Source: a virus
Length of the DNA: 26,785 bases
IMG/VR virus record: IMGVR_UViG_3300032516_000162
Location: 1-26,785 of that record
Direction: 5' to 3' (one strand)
In this document: positions 637 through 23,266 of the stretch, piece after piece
Position numbering within the stretch: the first letter of the stretch is position 1
Layout of the letters: each line of letters begins with the position of its first letter
Position numbers and translations under genes: made by a program
The notes under the pieces: model-generated
What the model saw: the letters and a program-made list of their open reading frames with translations, nothing else
Databases searched by the model: none
Told to the model about the DNA's origin: nothing

Positions 637-1577
637 GGATACTTCATCTAAGTGACACAACCCTATCGGGCAACCCCCTTCAGATCTCCAGGCTCCTCCA
701 GAAGTTCGGAGGGGATGTGGGCTCGCGCCACCTCGTCTGGGCACCCACATCGGGATTCCGTACTTTCGATACGGACCTCGTGGCCGAAACCATGCCCGAA
801 GATGAGCTGGCCTACTGGCTGCACGAGTGGGCCGACGTAATTCACTACCATGATGGCTGGAAGAAGCTGAAGGTGCTGCGGCACCTGGGAATAGCGCCGC
901 CCAAAAAGGTCTCTGTTATCCAGGTCCACAGCCCCCGTTCGTGGATCGATGACCTCACCTCGGCCTTCGCTACTAAAGTACCTGTCGCTATGACTGCGCA
1001 CCTCAATATAGAGGGCTGGCCGGAGGCTGACTTCGTCGTGCCGGGAGTGCTTGATATCACAGATGCGGCCTACCTCCCTCTGCGGCAATGCCTAAGGTCC
1101 CAGCCGACCATCTCCCATGCGCCGAGCAACTGGGCCGCAAGGGGGTGGGAAGGGGAGAGCTTCACGGTCGTAAACCCTATGCTGACCGCACTGCGGGATG
1201 CAGGGGAGATCAACTACCAGCTCATAGTCAAACGCCCCCACAAGGAGGTCTTGGCCCTCAAACGGCACTCTGATATCGGTGTTGATGAAATCTTTGACGG
1301 CAGCTGCGGCCTTAGCTCCCTTGAGTATCTGGCTCTCGGTGTCCCTTGCTTTGCTGACATCAGTGAGAGGGTCCGCGCTGGAATCAAAGAGCTGACGGGG
1401 GCTACGGATCTTCCGTGGCTTGACGGCAGCGCAGGCAGCCTTAAAAGAAACGTCGGCGATTTGGTTCGCGCAAAGATGTGGCAGGTATACGGGGAACGCT
1501 CCCGCCTATGGATGGAGACCTACTGGAAACCCGAAACCCTAGTCAACCACTACCTCGAAATGTATCGCAGCCTTTAA
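633..1577 (+). CDS. GT-B type glycosyltransferase (GT4-like)
   Basis: A 314-residue protein with the outline of a GT-B glycosyltransferase. It has an N-terminal Rossmann start (MRILHLSDTTLSGNPLQISR), a short ADVIHYHD strand near residue 67, and a C-terminal nucleotide-sugar region containing SSLEYLALGVPCFAD (about 228-242). In that region E231 sits where GT4 enzymes keep the last Glu of their E-x7-E motif. The C-terminal helix (WKPETLVNHYLEMY) is also typical. The family transfers sugars from activated donors; in phages the targets include host surface glycans, phage DNA or phage proteins. Donor and acceptor cannot be read from the sequence. The GTG start follows GGGGAGG and overlaps the preceding stop. 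The protein is shorter than the usual 350-400 residues, and the first domain looks reduced. Confidence 0.7.
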   Translation: MRILHLSDTTLSGNPLQISRLLQKFGGDVGSRHLVWAPTSGFRTFDTDLVAETMPEDELAYWLHEWADVIHYHDGWKKLKVLRHLGIAPPKKVSVIQVHSPRSWIDDLTSAFATKVPVAMTAHLNIEGWPEADFVVPGVLDITDAAYLPLRQCLRSQPTISHAPSNWAARGWEGESFTVVNPMLTALRDAGEINYQLIVKRPHKEVLALKRHSDIGVDEIFDGSCGLSSLEYLALGVPCFADISERVRAGIKELTGATDLPWLDGSAGSLKRNVGDLVRAKMWQVYGERSRLWMETYWKPETLVNHYLEMYRSL

Positions 1578-1590
1578 GAAGGAGGCACCC

Positions 1591-1692
1591 ATGGACTTCG
1601 TGGCTTTACAAGGAAGACGCTACGCTCCTACAAGAGGAGCTCGCAGCGGCCAGGGCACTGCGAGATGCCCATTTAGAAAAGTAGCCAATTAG
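1591..1692 (+). CDS. Possible 33-residue basic small protein
   Basis: An ATG stands five bases after AAGGAGG, directly downstream of the glycosyltransferase stop, so translation initiation is likely here. The encoded 33-residue peptide is Arg-rich and not recognisable. The neighbouring frame over the same bases reads YKEDATLLQEELAAARALRD, which looks more like real protein (an acidic/basic helix) but has no start codon of its own in a good position. Either the small basic peptide is real, or this is a degenerate or frameshifted gene. Confidence is low. Confidence 0.3.
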   Translation: MDFVALQGRRYAPTRGARSGQGTARCPFRKVAN

Positions 1693-1694
1693 CT

Positions 1695-1702
1695 GGTATA
1701 AG
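1695..1702 (+). promoter_or_regulatory. GGTATAAG promoter-like element (TGG-TATAAG)
   Basis: TGGTATAAG reads as an extended -10 element. It shares its core with the GGTATAAGG motif found before several genes of this window. No good -35 is visible. It precedes the structured, gene-free stretch that ends in a terminator hairpin. Confidence 0.35.
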
Positions 1703-1704
1703 TT

Positions 1705-1865
1705 ATTTGAAGAGACATGATGTAGCTTCAGATCAATCAGACTTTCCACGTGAGGCGCATGCGCTTAGGTGAAAAGTCTGAACCGGCAGGATGCTTGAGA
1801 CTAGATCTCGTTGAGCAACCCGCACGAACAGCATTGCCAATCGGGGTTTCCCCGATCGTAATTTT
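1705..1865 (+). ncRNA. Candidate structured phage RNA
   Basis: About 160 bases without a convincing gene lie between a promoter-like element and a terminator hairpin. Three hairpins can be drawn. The first is a long arm at 1738-1780, where CAGACTTT pairs with AAAGTCTG, a CAC/GTG step follows, and the tip is formed by the palindrome GCGCATGCGC. The second is an arm at 1793-1816 with GAGA/TCTC inside GCTT/GAGC. The third is the terminator. The promoter-hairpins-terminator order is that of a stand-alone small RNA. It does not match a tRNA (no T-arm consensus, no CCA) or any riboswitch class I recognise. It could instead be a 3' untranslated region of the glycosyltransferase transcript. Confidence 0.4.
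1840..1856 (+). terminator. Hairpin terminator, possibly bidirectional
   Basis: ATCGGGG-TTT-CCCCGAT forms a seven-pair stem, followed on the plus strand by CGTAATTTTAG. It can end the rightward transcript. It also lies about 40 bases beyond the stop of the leftward gene at 1895-2188, so it may serve both directions. The trailing T-tract is modest. Confidence 0.55.
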
Positions 1866-1874
1866 AGCTACGGA

Positions 1875-1893
1875 CTAACCATAACCAATTTTT
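1875..1893 (+). repeat. 19-base inverted-orientation repeat, copy 1
   Basis: CTAACCATAACCAATTTTT here is identical to the minus strand at 23535-23553. The distant copy sits in the leader of a leftward gene, 22 bases after a GGTATAAGG element. This copy sits between the terminator hairpin and the stop of the 1895-2188 gene. Relative to the nearest GGTATAAG element, both copies have the same sense. Confidence 0.6.
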
Positions 1894-1894
1894 A

Positions 1895-2188
1895 TCAATC
1901 GAGGCGGCAAGACCAGTGTTTCCTCCGCAGTTCTAAAGCAATCGCCTCTGCTTTATCCGCGCATAGTTCAGGGTCACGGGTTGCGTCGCTGAGAACTACG
2001 TCAGGCTCTTTTTCCGTCGGCTTCTTATACACGATCTTACATGGCAGCCTTGCGGCATATGATGACTCCACAACGATCTTCCGCGTAAAGCCGCCAGCTT
2101 CACAGGTCCATATGTATCCGGCCAGCAAAGGGGGGTAGGGCAGAAGAAGTGCTAGAGTTGCTGTTTTACCCAAGATGCGAAAGCTCAT
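1895..2188 (-). CDS. Small exported cysteine-containing protein
   Basis: A 97-residue protein that starts with a basic N-terminus and a hydrophobic run (TATLALLLPYPPLLAG), a probable signal peptide or anchor. The rest has the pattern C-E-x-G-G-x-x-R, then PCKIVYKKP, then a C-terminal part ending HWSC. I have seen this order of cysteines in small hypothetical proteins of Gammaproteobacteria (a WTCE...PC.V.Y...C..KA....W.C layout), so I infer a periplasmic disulfide-bonded protein. It is the only leftward gene inside a rightward block, with a Shine-Dalgarno GAGGAA, and looks like an inserted host-derived accessory gene. The function is unknown. Confidence 0.65.
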   Translation of the reverse strand: MSFRILGKTATLALLLPYPPLLAGYIWTCEAGGFTRKIVVESSYAARLPCKIVYKKPTEKEPDVVLSDATRDPELCADKAEAIALELRRKHWSCRLD

Positions 2189-15784: not shown

Positions 15785-16178
15785 TCACCATCTCCTTGTG
15801 ATCTCCACATAATTTCAGGTACCGCTCTACCCAGGGACCAAAGGTGCCATGCACCCTGTTCTGCTCCTTCGCCTCTTCCCACGTGTAGCGTGTCTCTGTT
15901 ATGGGCGCAGCAGTGACCACAAACATCTTAAGAGGCATGCCCACGAGCACCTTCTGCCCCTCTTTCATAAAGGTCTGCTGCACCTCAACGCCGTTCTTTA
16001 ATACCCACGCATGGGACATTTCACGCCCCTCGTAGAGGATCACGCCGTGCACAAGTCTGTGCGTGTCCTGCTCTCCGTACGCTGCGAGCGTATAGAAGTA
16101 TTCCAGCATATCGTCAAAGCATGAATGCGTAGGCATGAGGGTGATTGTTTCTCTTGATATCTCGTTCTGTACTTGCAC
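15774..16178 (-). CDS. Conserved phage hypothetical protein
   Basis: A 134-residue protein. GTG at 16178 is preferred because TTTAGGAGGG precedes it. The pattern THRLVHGVILYEGREMSHAW, followed by VLKNGVEVQQTFM and a late GPWVERYLKLC, resembles a phage/prophage family with a conserved HGV....HAW core. His57 and His68 (approximate) could be functional. I do not know the activity. It overlaps the next gene. Confidence 0.7.
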   Translation of the reverse strand: MQVQNEISRETITLMPTHSCFDDMLEYFYTLAAYGEQDTHRLVHGVILYEGREMSHAWVLKNGVEVQQTFMKEGQKVLVGMPLKMFVVTAAPITETRYTWEEAKEQNRVHGTFGPWVERYLKLCGDHKEMVNEL

Positions 16179-16186
16179 GGTCCCTC

Positions 16187-16420
16187 CTAAAACCAAACTT
16201 CTACGGTGCTACTCGTGTCATTGGGGTCCCTCGGCACTCTTACGAGACCCCATTGCGCGAAGTGCTCCTGCAGCTGCTCGAGGGATTTCCCCCGAATTAT
16301 CTCGGTAGTGGGCACTACCCCGGCAGCCTCTGCAATAAAGCACCTTGCGACAAACTCGCCTGGATAGTCTTCGGGGCTCTTAAAGATGGTCCATACCTTG
16401 AGCTTGTCGTTCTCGGTCAC
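16187..16420 (-). CDS. Conserved small phage protein
   Basis: A 77-residue protein with a GTG start 9 bases after AGGAG. The layout KVWTIFKSPEDYPGEFVARC, then SLEQLQEHFAQWGLVRVPRD and a final VEVWF matches a small family I have seen repeatedly in phages (WTI...P.DYP..F.AR.........L..GL....R.....V.EVW). It is the first gene after the long structured gap, so its leader contains the hairpins there. The function is unknown. Confidence 0.75.
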   Translation of the reverse strand: MTENDKLKVWTIFKSPEDYPGEFVARCFIAEAAGVVPTTEIIRGKSLEQLQEHFAQWGLVRVPRDPNDTSSTVEVWF

Positions 16421-16819
16421 GCTGTTCCGCTCCTAAAAGCCTATGCAAACCTGGGTCTACGTAGTTTAGGTAATTCGCTCTCCGTTGATGTCTCTTGTGA
16501 GCCTGCAACTGGAGTCCTGGATGGGCGGTCGGACTGGAAGCCAGTCCTAACTCATCCGATGCCTGTCGATTCGCGGCAAAGCCACGCTAACAGGAGTGTT
16601 GATGTTCAGCATAAGACATGCCCGCTGGCGCGATAAAGTTCTGTCAAATGACTCGACTTGTCATGGCTTAAGATTCCATCACTCACAGGCGAAAACCTTT
16701 CGCCTTACCTCAAAGCCTTTGAGGCAAAGCACTCTTAATACGTATACTGAAGGATGTCAAAGGGTGTTATAAAATCTCTGCACAATGCATAGAATTATCA
16801 ATTTTTATCCAGGTTTGAT
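16421..16819. other. 400-base gene-free block rich in hairpins
   Basis: No convincing gene is present on either strand. Structures: GGACTGG-AAG-CCAGTCC at 16531-16547 inside GGATG/CATCC (16519-16557); AGGCGAAA-ACC-TTTCGCCT at 16687-16705; CCTCAAAG-C-CTTTGAGG at 16708-16724. On the minus strand a perfect TTGACA (16760-16755) is followed by TATTAA/TAAGAG, a possible promoter for the leftward genes. On the plus strand TGTTATAAA (16765-16773) is a possible extended -10. A 56-codon plus-strand frame starts at 16602 behind AGGAG, but its product looks random. It may be a regulated leader, a small-RNA locus or an origin. Confidence 0.5.
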
Positions 16820-17044
16820 TTAGCAGTTACTTGCCCTTTCGTATATAATCAGATCTGTCAACTTAATGGCCTTTACTTTGAGCGGCAGCCCGCGCCGGAC
16901 TTCAACCAAATGCTTGCTGACTAGCGTAGTCGTCAGAGCCCCCACCTCGATCAGCCGCCGGACTTGTGGGGTCGAGCGCCCGAGCACTCTACTTGCGTAA
17001 TGGGTTGTCACGTATTCTGGCATTCCCTCGGTATCTGTTTGCAC
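16820..17044 (-). CDS. Small helix-turn-helix (excisionase/MerR-like) protein
   Basis: A 74-residue protein. The GTG start has GGAG five bases before it; the internal ATG (residue 8) lacks proper spacing. Residues 12-31 (VTTHYASRVLGRSTPQVRRL) form the winged helix-turn-helix of the excisionase/MerR N-terminal type, with IEVGAL as the turn into the wing and a final strand IKLTDLIIYE as in this family. It is likely a DNA-binding regulator or recombination directionality-type factor; no integrase is seen, so a regulator is favoured. It borders the structured block, a possible target. Confidence 0.7.
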   Translation of the reverse strand: MQTDTEGMPEYVTTHYASRVLGRSTPQVRRLIEVGALTTTLVSKHLVEVRRGLPLKVKAIKLTDLIIYERASNC

Positions 17045-17061: not shown

Positions 17062-17085
17062 CACCCCTAGCCTAAGCCAGGGGTG
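17062..17085 (-). terminator. Hairpin between the HTH gene and DUF2314-like gene
   Basis: Leftward CACCCCTGGC-TTAG-GCTAGGGGTG forms ten pairs with a tetraloop, followed by TATTTAG. It may end the 18-17 kb operon before the helix-turn-helix gene, although it also overlaps that gene's leader. Confidence 0.6.
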
Positions 17086-22137: not shown

Positions 22138-22905
22138 TTACCTCATATTGTTAAAGCCCTGAACCTGTTCCATAACATGCCTGGCGTCGGTGTCGGACAG
22201 TGTTCCCAGTATCTTTATAATATCCAGATAAGCCACCTGCTTCTCCGAGAAAGAAAGGCCACGGCTTTTTATGACCATGCCTGTTGCTGCCTGCACTACT
22301 GGGGGCCTTACCTCTGCTCTTTGTACGACAACGGCCGTCTCTTCCACCTTCTTCTCCTCCACTCTTTTGATCTCCACTGCAGGCCTCGTAGCACGTTCGT
22401 ACTCATCAATACCCTTTTGGATCCTCTTGTATTTGATCCCCACGAGATCCAGAGCATCTCTTAAGCCAAACAGCTTCTCGATGTCATCTGCCTTTCGTAT
22501 CGCCGTAACCAGTGCCATGAAGTCCGGCTCCCTCTCATCTATCTCTGTCATGATGTCAGAGATAGTAAGTTGCAGATCTGTGCCGCTGTGCTTTGTACAG
22601 CATTCCAGCACGCGCTGATAGATCGTTGTCTTTTTTTTACTTATCAAGCAGCTCTCCTTTATGGCGTTATCGCTCTGTAAATCCTCTGCCACAGTATTTA
22701 CGAGTGGCGCATCCTCTGCGTTTTTTCTTGCGTGTGCCTTTCTGACGATAACTTTGATGTGCTTGGATAGCCTTCTGTCCACGGTGTGGCCGCGCGGAAT
22801 CGTAATGTCTGCATCGCCGTTGTTGTAAATTGCATGTTTTGCACCTTGTCGGTGCAGGCTGAACCCGTGCTGCTGCAGATACTTGTGCATTTCAAAAAAG
22901 CGCAT
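22138..22905 (-). CDS. HicA-fold (YcfA-like) domain protein with long C-terminal extension
   Basis: A 255-residue protein. ATG at 22905 is chosen because further upstream starts run through the previous gene. Residues 1-58 match the HicA/YcfA double-stranded-RNA-binding fold: a helix YLQQHGFSLHRQ, GAKHAIYNNG (His24 in the position of the catalytic HicA His), ITIPRGH (35-41), then a helix LSKHIKVIVRKAHARK. HicA toxins are about 60 residues and cleave mRNA. Here about 195 more residues follow, helical and Val/Glu-rich, not recognised. No HicB antitoxin is adjacent. It could be an RNA-binding regulator. Confidence 0.7.
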   Translation of the reverse strand: MRFFEMHKYLQQHGFSLHRQGAKHAIYNNGDADITIPRGHTVDRRLSKHIKVIVRKAHARKNAEDAPLVNTVAEDLQSDNAIKESCLISKKKTTIYQRVLECCTKHSGTDLQLTISDIMTEIDEREPDFMALVTAIRKADDIEKLFGLRDALDLVGIKYKRIQKGIDEYERATRPAVEIKRVEEKKVEETAVVVQRAEVRPPVVQAATGMVIKSRGLSFSEKQVAYLDIIKILGTLSDTDARHVMEQVQGFNNMR

Positions 22906-23266
22906 GAGGCCCCAGCAATTCTGGCTGCATGTGGATAAGCAGCGTCTCCCCGCGGCCGGGATAGTTCGCCACAGATATCCCTCCGTGAGGCACACCAAAG
23001 ACTTTGATGCACGCCTTTTGGAGCGAATACGGTACGGTCATACTCACTGGGGCTGTTGACCGGTCCGCCAGTGAAAAGCCCACTACCGGCTGCAGTTTTC
23101 CGTCGAACATTTCTCGCTTGTAGGTGACCAGCCAGCCGCCGACAAAGCCACCAACGCCTGGGACTTCTTCTGCTAGCTGGATCCCGCAGGAGCTTTTGAA
23201 TCCAAAAAAGAGAGCCGTGGCTTCGGCCTCAAGTATCGGGTCTTCTTTGCTTGGGTCTTCGTCCAT
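22892..23266 (-). CDS. Hypothetical protein
   Basis: A 124-residue protein with ATG at 23266 behind AAAGGG; a longer start at 23332 lacks a site. It has an acidic N-terminus (MDEDPSKEDPILEAEA), then alternating strands and Gly-rich turns (EEVPGVGGFVGGWLVTYKRE), and a later segment GRGETLLIHMQPEL. Its end overlaps the HicA-fold gene. It is not recognised. Confidence 0.65.
   Translation of the reverse strand: MDEDPSKEDPILEAEATALFFGFKSSCGIQLAEEVPGVGGFVGGWLVTYKREMFDGKLQPVVGFSLADRSTAPVSMTVPYSLQKACIKVFGVPHGGISVANYPGRGETLLIHMQPELLGPHALF

Follow-up and report, generated by a model that had tools for sequence, protein, structure and literature searches.

The guide RNAs of TnpB nucleases are normally made beside the tnpB message, or out of it. 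RAGATH-18 and IS605-orfB have Rfam families. In 2023, Meers et al. reportedly described a retention and homing role for TnpB guides.

The closest described systems are found in the IS607 family. There, the TnpB RNAs (reRNA or omegaRNA) of ISXfa1 and ISFba1/RAGATH-18 have a scaffold at the right end of the element, a pseudoknot, and a guide that is derived from the flank (excerpts of PMC11061315 and PMC10711439). The elements recombine at matching, fixed dinucleotides, and nucleotides of the right flank are kept in the scaffold (excerpts of PMC10711439). The guide of ISFba1 has an optimum of 20 nt, and the TAMs of IS607 TnpBs are AGGAG or GAGGG (excerpts of PMC11061315). Phages can also employ TnpB-like RNA-guided factors, as in the case of TldR (excerpts of PMC13418256).

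A block of about 400 bases in a virus can be compared with these systems. The window, meaning the whole stretch of DNA that was analysed, is a virus record from IMG/VR, 26,785 bases long; a terminase and a DNA polymerase of family A are among its genes. The block is probably a tnpB-less IS607-like mobile insert of about 382 bp that encodes one stand-alone guide RNA. Like the IS607 TnpB RNAs, it has a right-end scaffold, a pseudoknot, and a predicted flank-derived guide, as well as fixed right-end nucleotides kept in the scaffold and a G-rich target motif (compared with excerpts of PMC11061315 and PMC10711439). Unlike those systems, the window has no tnpB beside the scaffold, and no Rfam family was matched. 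Because tnpB is missing from the window, the claim is one of a tnpB-less relative and not of a complete system. The RNA of the tnpB-bearing relatives overlaps the gene, whereas the RAGATH-18 type is described as independent of coding sequence (excerpts of PMC11061315). The RNA of the block is a variant of the IS607 guide RNAs, and no Rfam family covers its scaffold. The features of the locus are as follows.

16187-16420, minus strand: downstream gene, 77 aa
16407-16426, minus strand: predicted guide, 20 nt (length from the literature), spanning the start codon of the next gene
16427-16808, minus strand: whole insert, putative tnpB-less IS607-like element, 382 bp; right end firm, left end putative
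16427-16582, minus strand: guide-RNA (omega/reRNA) scaffold core, model R1
16427-16433, minus strand: scaffold 3' end and element right end GGAGCGG (family end GGArCRG)
16471-16489, minus strand: conserved box ATCAACGGAGAGCGAATTA
16505-16516, minus strand: conserved box GACTCCAGTTGC
16519-16523, minus strand: stem H1, 3' arm CATCC, pairing with GGATG
16525-16528, minus strand: pseudoknot, loop side CCGC, pairing with 16427-16430
16531-16547, minus strand: inner hairpin H0, GGACTGG-CTT-CCAGTCC, recurring in the subfamily
16553-16557, minus strand: stem H1, 5' arm GGATG, with compensatory versions in relatives
16687-16705, minus strand: hairpin B, AGGCGAAA-GGT-TTTCGCCT, model R2
16708-16724, minus strand: hairpin A, CCTCAAA-GGC-TTTGAGG, model R2, with covariation
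16755-16760, minus strand: TTGACA, possible -35 of the element's own promoter, from sequence
16809-16810, minus strand: putative left core dinucleotide GG, the only suitable GG
16820-17044, minus strand: upstream gene, 74 aa, MerR-like helix-turn-helix (HTH); not part of the insert

The initial annotation had described a gene-free block with several strong hairpins, and this description stands. There is no credible ORF in 16421-16819. The sole long frame across the block, 16145-16636 on the plus strand (163 aa), is without any PHROG match and was rejected as a coding remnant of another gene. The block adjoins the HTH gene, as had been proposed, but it lies inside the leftward gene run and not at its head, because the HTH gene also reads leftward. 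The protein of that gene has a weak MerR-like PHROG match (E 0.025). The 77-aa protein on the other side is related to a protein of Microbacterium phage Nicole72 (34% over 77 aa, E 5e-5); a match in contig L009 reaches 52% but spans 27 residues, and was not used.

The hairpins were found where they had been reported. The nested stems are GGACTGG/CCAGTCC (16531-16547) within GGATG/CATCC (16519-16523 with 16553-16557), and the two neighbouring hairpins are AGGCGAAA/TTTCGCCT (16687-16705) and CCTCAAA/TTTGAGG (16708-16724; with flanks included, 14 nt at 86%). The minus strand of the block folds with a z of -3.73, with 0 of 100 shuffles as good, and the plus strand with a z of -2.23 (2 of 100). After trimming to 16427-16730, the values are -4.35 (0 of 100) for the minus strand and -1.59 (2 of 100) for the plus strand. 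The hairpins are real and specific to the minus strand.

The perfect TTGACA is present as well, on the minus strand at 16755-16760, and a second copy lies at 16642-16647 on the same strand. For TTGACA no good -10 was found at a spacing of 16-18 nt, and a strong promoter is not visible. Taken as a set, the stretches upstream of hairpin A in 15 class members have a mean of 8.13 promoter matches of 12, against 7.27 in shuffles (0 of 200 shuffles as high). The window alone scores weakly (p 0.085).

Three roles had been suggested for the block. The notion of a structured RNA survives; the notions of an origin and of an antisense RNA do not. A replication origin is ruled out, as neither an iteron family nor a GC-skew switch is found at the block. 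Nothing supports an antisense RNA, and a regulated leader would be a side effect at most. A search for tRNA and tmRNA found none, and phage records searched by DNA gave no match at E 1e-5. Rfam on the block gives nothing at the gathering score, and at E<=5 only WT1-AS_7 (E 1.6), far under its threshold. RAGATH-18, HEARO, IS605-orfB, and the other Rfam families all stay below threshold in the window, and a search of 18 relatives at the gathering score found no family at the element.

Two further features of the window lie outside the block. A conserved hairpin (CACCCCTAGC/GCCAGGGGTG) at 17062-17085, between the HTH gene and the gene upstream of it, is kept in three related contigs (L002, L003, L004) and is possibly a terminator or a translation signal. 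The frame 22138-22998 on the minus strand has a sub-threshold match to the HicA toxin (E 0.00088).

Two links to TnpB elements and bacterial plasmids were obtained independently of covariance models. By blastn against plasmids, positions 16465-16530 match an unannotated stretch of Allochromatium tepidum plasmid pAt1 (E 2e-4), and a weak 25-nt phage match, in a Helicobacter felis prophage, directly follows a gene annotated as IS605 OrfB (TnpB). A search for the shared motif in viral contigs gave 12 stretches, several of which terminate a TnpB reading frame. A stricter pattern gave 8; of the seven records other than L026, five have a TnpB domain, which is absent from phage record L019 and from the contig nearly identical to the window. 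A longer pattern in bacterial genomes gave at least 119 stretches. Two 19-nt matches in contig G002 were set aside; they lie in a region of internal repeats that bears no relation to the scaffold.

From all loci, 132 distinct family matches were parsed among the matches listed. Many of them overrun the 3' end of long TnpB frames, and several have an upstream MerR-resolvase gene; both of the upstream genes tested score above the NCBIfam cut-off for IS607 family transposase. The TnpBs of two relatives are over the Pfam PF07282 cut-off, one of them above and one below that of NCBIfam guided_TnpB. The scaffolds of the relatives end inside or just after the tnpB of IS607-type elements. Among the matches listed, 40 of 90 distinct members have a TnpB match of at least 150 aa upstream, and 17 more have a fragment. 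No TnpB (PF07282) was found in the window, nor is a TnpA known there.

A covariance model of the scaffold (R1) was built from 25 relatives, with the window excluded. Its only match in the window at E<=10 is 16427-16582 on the minus strand (72.5 bits, E 1.9e-14), an E-value that is not fully independent because the rows were gathered by motifs common to the window; the structure and the tnpB context are independent of this. The same holds for E-values and class counts throughout, which overstate independence because rows and hairpin criteria were chosen after the motif and hairpins of the window had been seen. By family membership, the block is a guide RNA (omega/reRNA scaffold) of the TnpB type, without tnpB. 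Literature searches returned no description of tnpB-free, stand-alone, or twin-hairpin guide RNAs, which is no proof of absence.

The stems of the scaffold are kept in relatives with compensatory changes, in H1, H0, and hairpins A and B alike, and are therefore not a product of mere decay. H1 occurs in compensatory versions as GGTTG/CAACC, GGTGG/CCACC, GAAGG/CCTTC, GCTTG/CAAGC, GGCTG/CAGCC, and GGAGG/CCTCC. When the best partner is sought, a procedure that favours pairing, 551 of 560 cells are paired; on the fixed alignment, in which 5 subfamily rows are misaligned at H1, the figure is 88.5%. At the site of H0, a hairpin with different arms was found in 7 of 7 subfamily relatives tested, and in all of these, as in the window, it is flanked by GTTA and ACCGC.

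The pseudoknot joins a loop to the 3' end of the scaffold. Most rows have CUGC in the loop and GCAG at the end, while 5 subfamily rows, the window among them, have CCGC and GCGG. One pair thus changes on both sides, from U-A in 21 rows to C-G in 5. Overall, 87.4% of the pseudoknot cells are paired, and 12 of 26 rows lack the fourth pair. As the RNAalifold structure in R1 captured only part of the stems, separate counts were made for H1 and the pseudoknot. A family 3' end (GGAACAG, GGAGCAG, or GGAGCGG) is present in 117 of the 127 listed matches with an end found.

Hairpins A and B form a second module, upstream of the scaffold. In hairpin B, 7 pairs are paired in 98 of 98 cells across 14 sequences, and 6 of them have changed on both sides; the rows of the pair counts for both hairpins had been picked for having hairpins. 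A model of the module (R2), built from 7 relatives with the window excluded, matches the window at 16688-16723 on the minus strand (34.8 bits, E 5.5e-6), and its next match (E 0.017) falls on the complementary strand at this position. In the window, the R1 and R2 matches share a strand, with 105 nt between them. In bacteria, 9 of 12 R2 matches, some of them in rows that had trained R2, lie 105-134 nt upstream of a same-strand R1 match and one lies at 486 nt; the other two have no R1 match listed on their contig.

The twin hairpins go with the lack of tnpB. They were counted in 90 distinct members for which 340 nt or more of upstream sequence was available, after removal of a duplicate of the window (L028), by a criterion fixed after examples had been seen. 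Among the matches listed, twin NGN-triloop hairpins occur in 23 of 33 tnpB-less members, the window included, although 11 of the 23 are Thiorhodospira sibirica-type rows and the 23 amount to about nine sequence types. They are absent from all 40 members with tnpB and from all 17 with a fragment (0 of 57 together), and shuffled controls never gave more than 1. The tnpB-bearing relatives have a single GGN-triloop hairpin in 31 of 33 cases, nearly always inside tnpB near -200, while tnpB-less relatives often have two triloop hairpins in tandem. The 10 tnpB-less rows without the twin are L094, L114, L124, L128, L149, L164, L168, L169, L173, and L182. In the last of these, at about 2051 on the plus strand, a subfamily scaffold without tnpB or twins stands shortly after an unrelated frame resembling a membrane protein. 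A twin-hairpin, tnpB-less class demonstrably exists, and the block is a member of it.

Short elements with the same twin NGN-triloops and scaffold core are found in T. sibirica, Rhabdochromatium, Allochromatium pAt1, Chromatium okenii, and Parabeggiatoa; no tnpB was found ahead of them over distances of up to 1900 nt. The window copy differs from these bacterial elements in being phage-borne, in its GGAGCGG end, in its extra inner hairpin, and in its left end.

In T. sibirica and its neighbours, 20 copies share sharp ends and a length of 332-333 nt in unrelated flanks, and 19 of the 20 have a G immediately before the left end. With R1, 53 copies are detected in T. sibirica, and of 47 genomes from its order, 3 have matches. 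The tnpB-less twin class is demonstrably mobile in Thiorhodospira-type bacteria. Like MITEs, these elements are short, protein-free, and apparently mobilised in trans; unlike MITEs, the T. sibirica-type ends show no terminal inverted repeats, and the cargo is a guide RNA. T. sibirica carries other RNAs as well. A HEARO RNA (Rfam RF02033, 93.9 bits; L112, 5793-6055, minus strand) stands near a TnpB-type element, so T. sibirica has both OMEGA types. An sRNA-Xcc1 match (Rfam, 72.7 bits; L037, 3342-3426, plus strand) lies about 1 kb from a tnpB-less element.

The same ends recur in unrelated flanks for the 20 T. sibirica-type copies. The window copy has one identical twin only, at the same site: a second viral contig, the only other record with the window copy, has the block unchanged. 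Judged from the letters, the left end of the insert would lie at the GG of 16809-16810. Joining the flanks at these putative ends leaves the stop codon of the HTH gene, 17 nt, and the GTG of the 77-aa gene, which is normal phage spacing. In two related phage contigs, L003 and L004, the block is absent and the retained HTH gene is directly joined to a 140-aa gene; as these also lack the 77-aa gene, the full difference is about 654 bp and not 382. MAFFT stretched both contigs across the gap, and the junction was read off the sequences. A search for an empty site retaining the 77-aa gene found none.

The guide is predicted to begin where conservation stops, and its position in the window is assigned by homology. 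Among the matches listed (126 rows), base composition is flat from the first base after GGArCAG. Exact 18-nt guide matches occur in two viral contigs, L195 and L196, in unrelated sequence that is no empty site; by estimate, two is about the number expected by chance. Among 127 listed matches, 55 have an ATG 0-16 nt past the right end (control 30.7 +- 4.7) and 59 have the start codon of an ORF of at least 60 aa 0-19 nt past it (control 29.9 +- 3.7). Right ends of the family lie immediately ahead of start codons at about twice the frequency of random places. This excess fits insertion at Shine-Dalgarno-like sites, with the right end supplying a new one; the AGGAG and GAGGG TAMs of IS607 TnpBs agree with such targets.

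The insert, if it is the mobile guide-RNA element that we consider probable, would have entered between two genes of the leftward run. Its RNA would be read leftward, with the twin triloop hairpins 5', followed by the covarying stem with its inner hairpin and the pseudoknot to GGAGCGG, and would end in a guide copied from flanking DNA across the start codon of the 77-aa gene. Once produced, this RNA would load a TnpB supplied by the host or by another element. The complex could then cut copies of the site that lack the insert and thereby retain or spread the insert, which an IS607 TnpA could move in trans. A stronger version is tentative and rather doubtful: an RNA-only homing element, from a tnpB-free class equipped with its own promoter and twin module, that takes TnpB and TnpA from other elements and lets the TnpB of the host cut insert-free phages.

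The chief rival, though an unlikely one, is a dead remnant, in which an IS607 element lost tnpA and most of tnpB in the phage and left an unused guide RNA whose stems have not yet worn. The window has no nuclease, and its upstream part is weakly similar to tnpB 3' DNA: when it is scored against L019, L178, L163, and L088, 0, 3, 12, and 38 of 300 shuffles do as well. Part of the upstream half of the insert may, at most weakly, be a tnpB remnant. L019, a phage record of the subfamily of the window, has an intact scaffold beside a broken 3' part of tnpB (about 1412-2000, minus strand). Against this, all stems of the window copy are intact while little is left of any upstream coding signal, and the twin form is absent from members with tnpB or a fragment. 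Because its stems are intact and it has the twin form, the block looks like a copy from the tnpB-less class and not like a fresh ruin. The refuting condition named in the initial annotation, degraded coding sequence with an intact homologue in relatives, is half true. The RNA forms the 3' end of a tnpB element that has lost its nuclease gene, but the stems covary.

In another explanation, the guide RNA is adapted to the phage and kept because it directs a TnpB of the host, or a repressor resembling TnpB, against a host gene or against rivals. The RNA is indeed phage-borne and stands alone, and like TldR phage systems, which provide a precedent, it is a phage-borne part of a TnpB-type RNA-guided system (excerpts of PMC13418256). 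Unlike them, the window has no TldR or TnpB-like protein; the guide extends into the flanking gene, as it does for any ordinary insertion, and the two other viral matches noted above lie in unrelated sequence, near chance number. This makes such an adaptation very improbable. Least probable of all is that the RNA acts in cis on the 77-aa gene, as a leader or a translation switch. The 3' end of the scaffold does put AGGAG before the GTG start, so that folding could affect translation, but the same scaffold precedes many unrelated genes or none, and GGAGCGG is a family constant that is paired in the pseudoknot.

A guide-RNA insert explains a gap of 400 bases in a compact genome that gene annotation leaves blank. 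If the reading is true, there is a nuclease-free class with a fixed 5' hairpin pair that is still mobile, which would make it a selfish guide parasitising the nucleases of others. The phage copy would then bring RNA-guided competition into phage populations without a nuclease gene. Should RNA-only homing also prove true, DNA without any protein gene would spread through a phage population.
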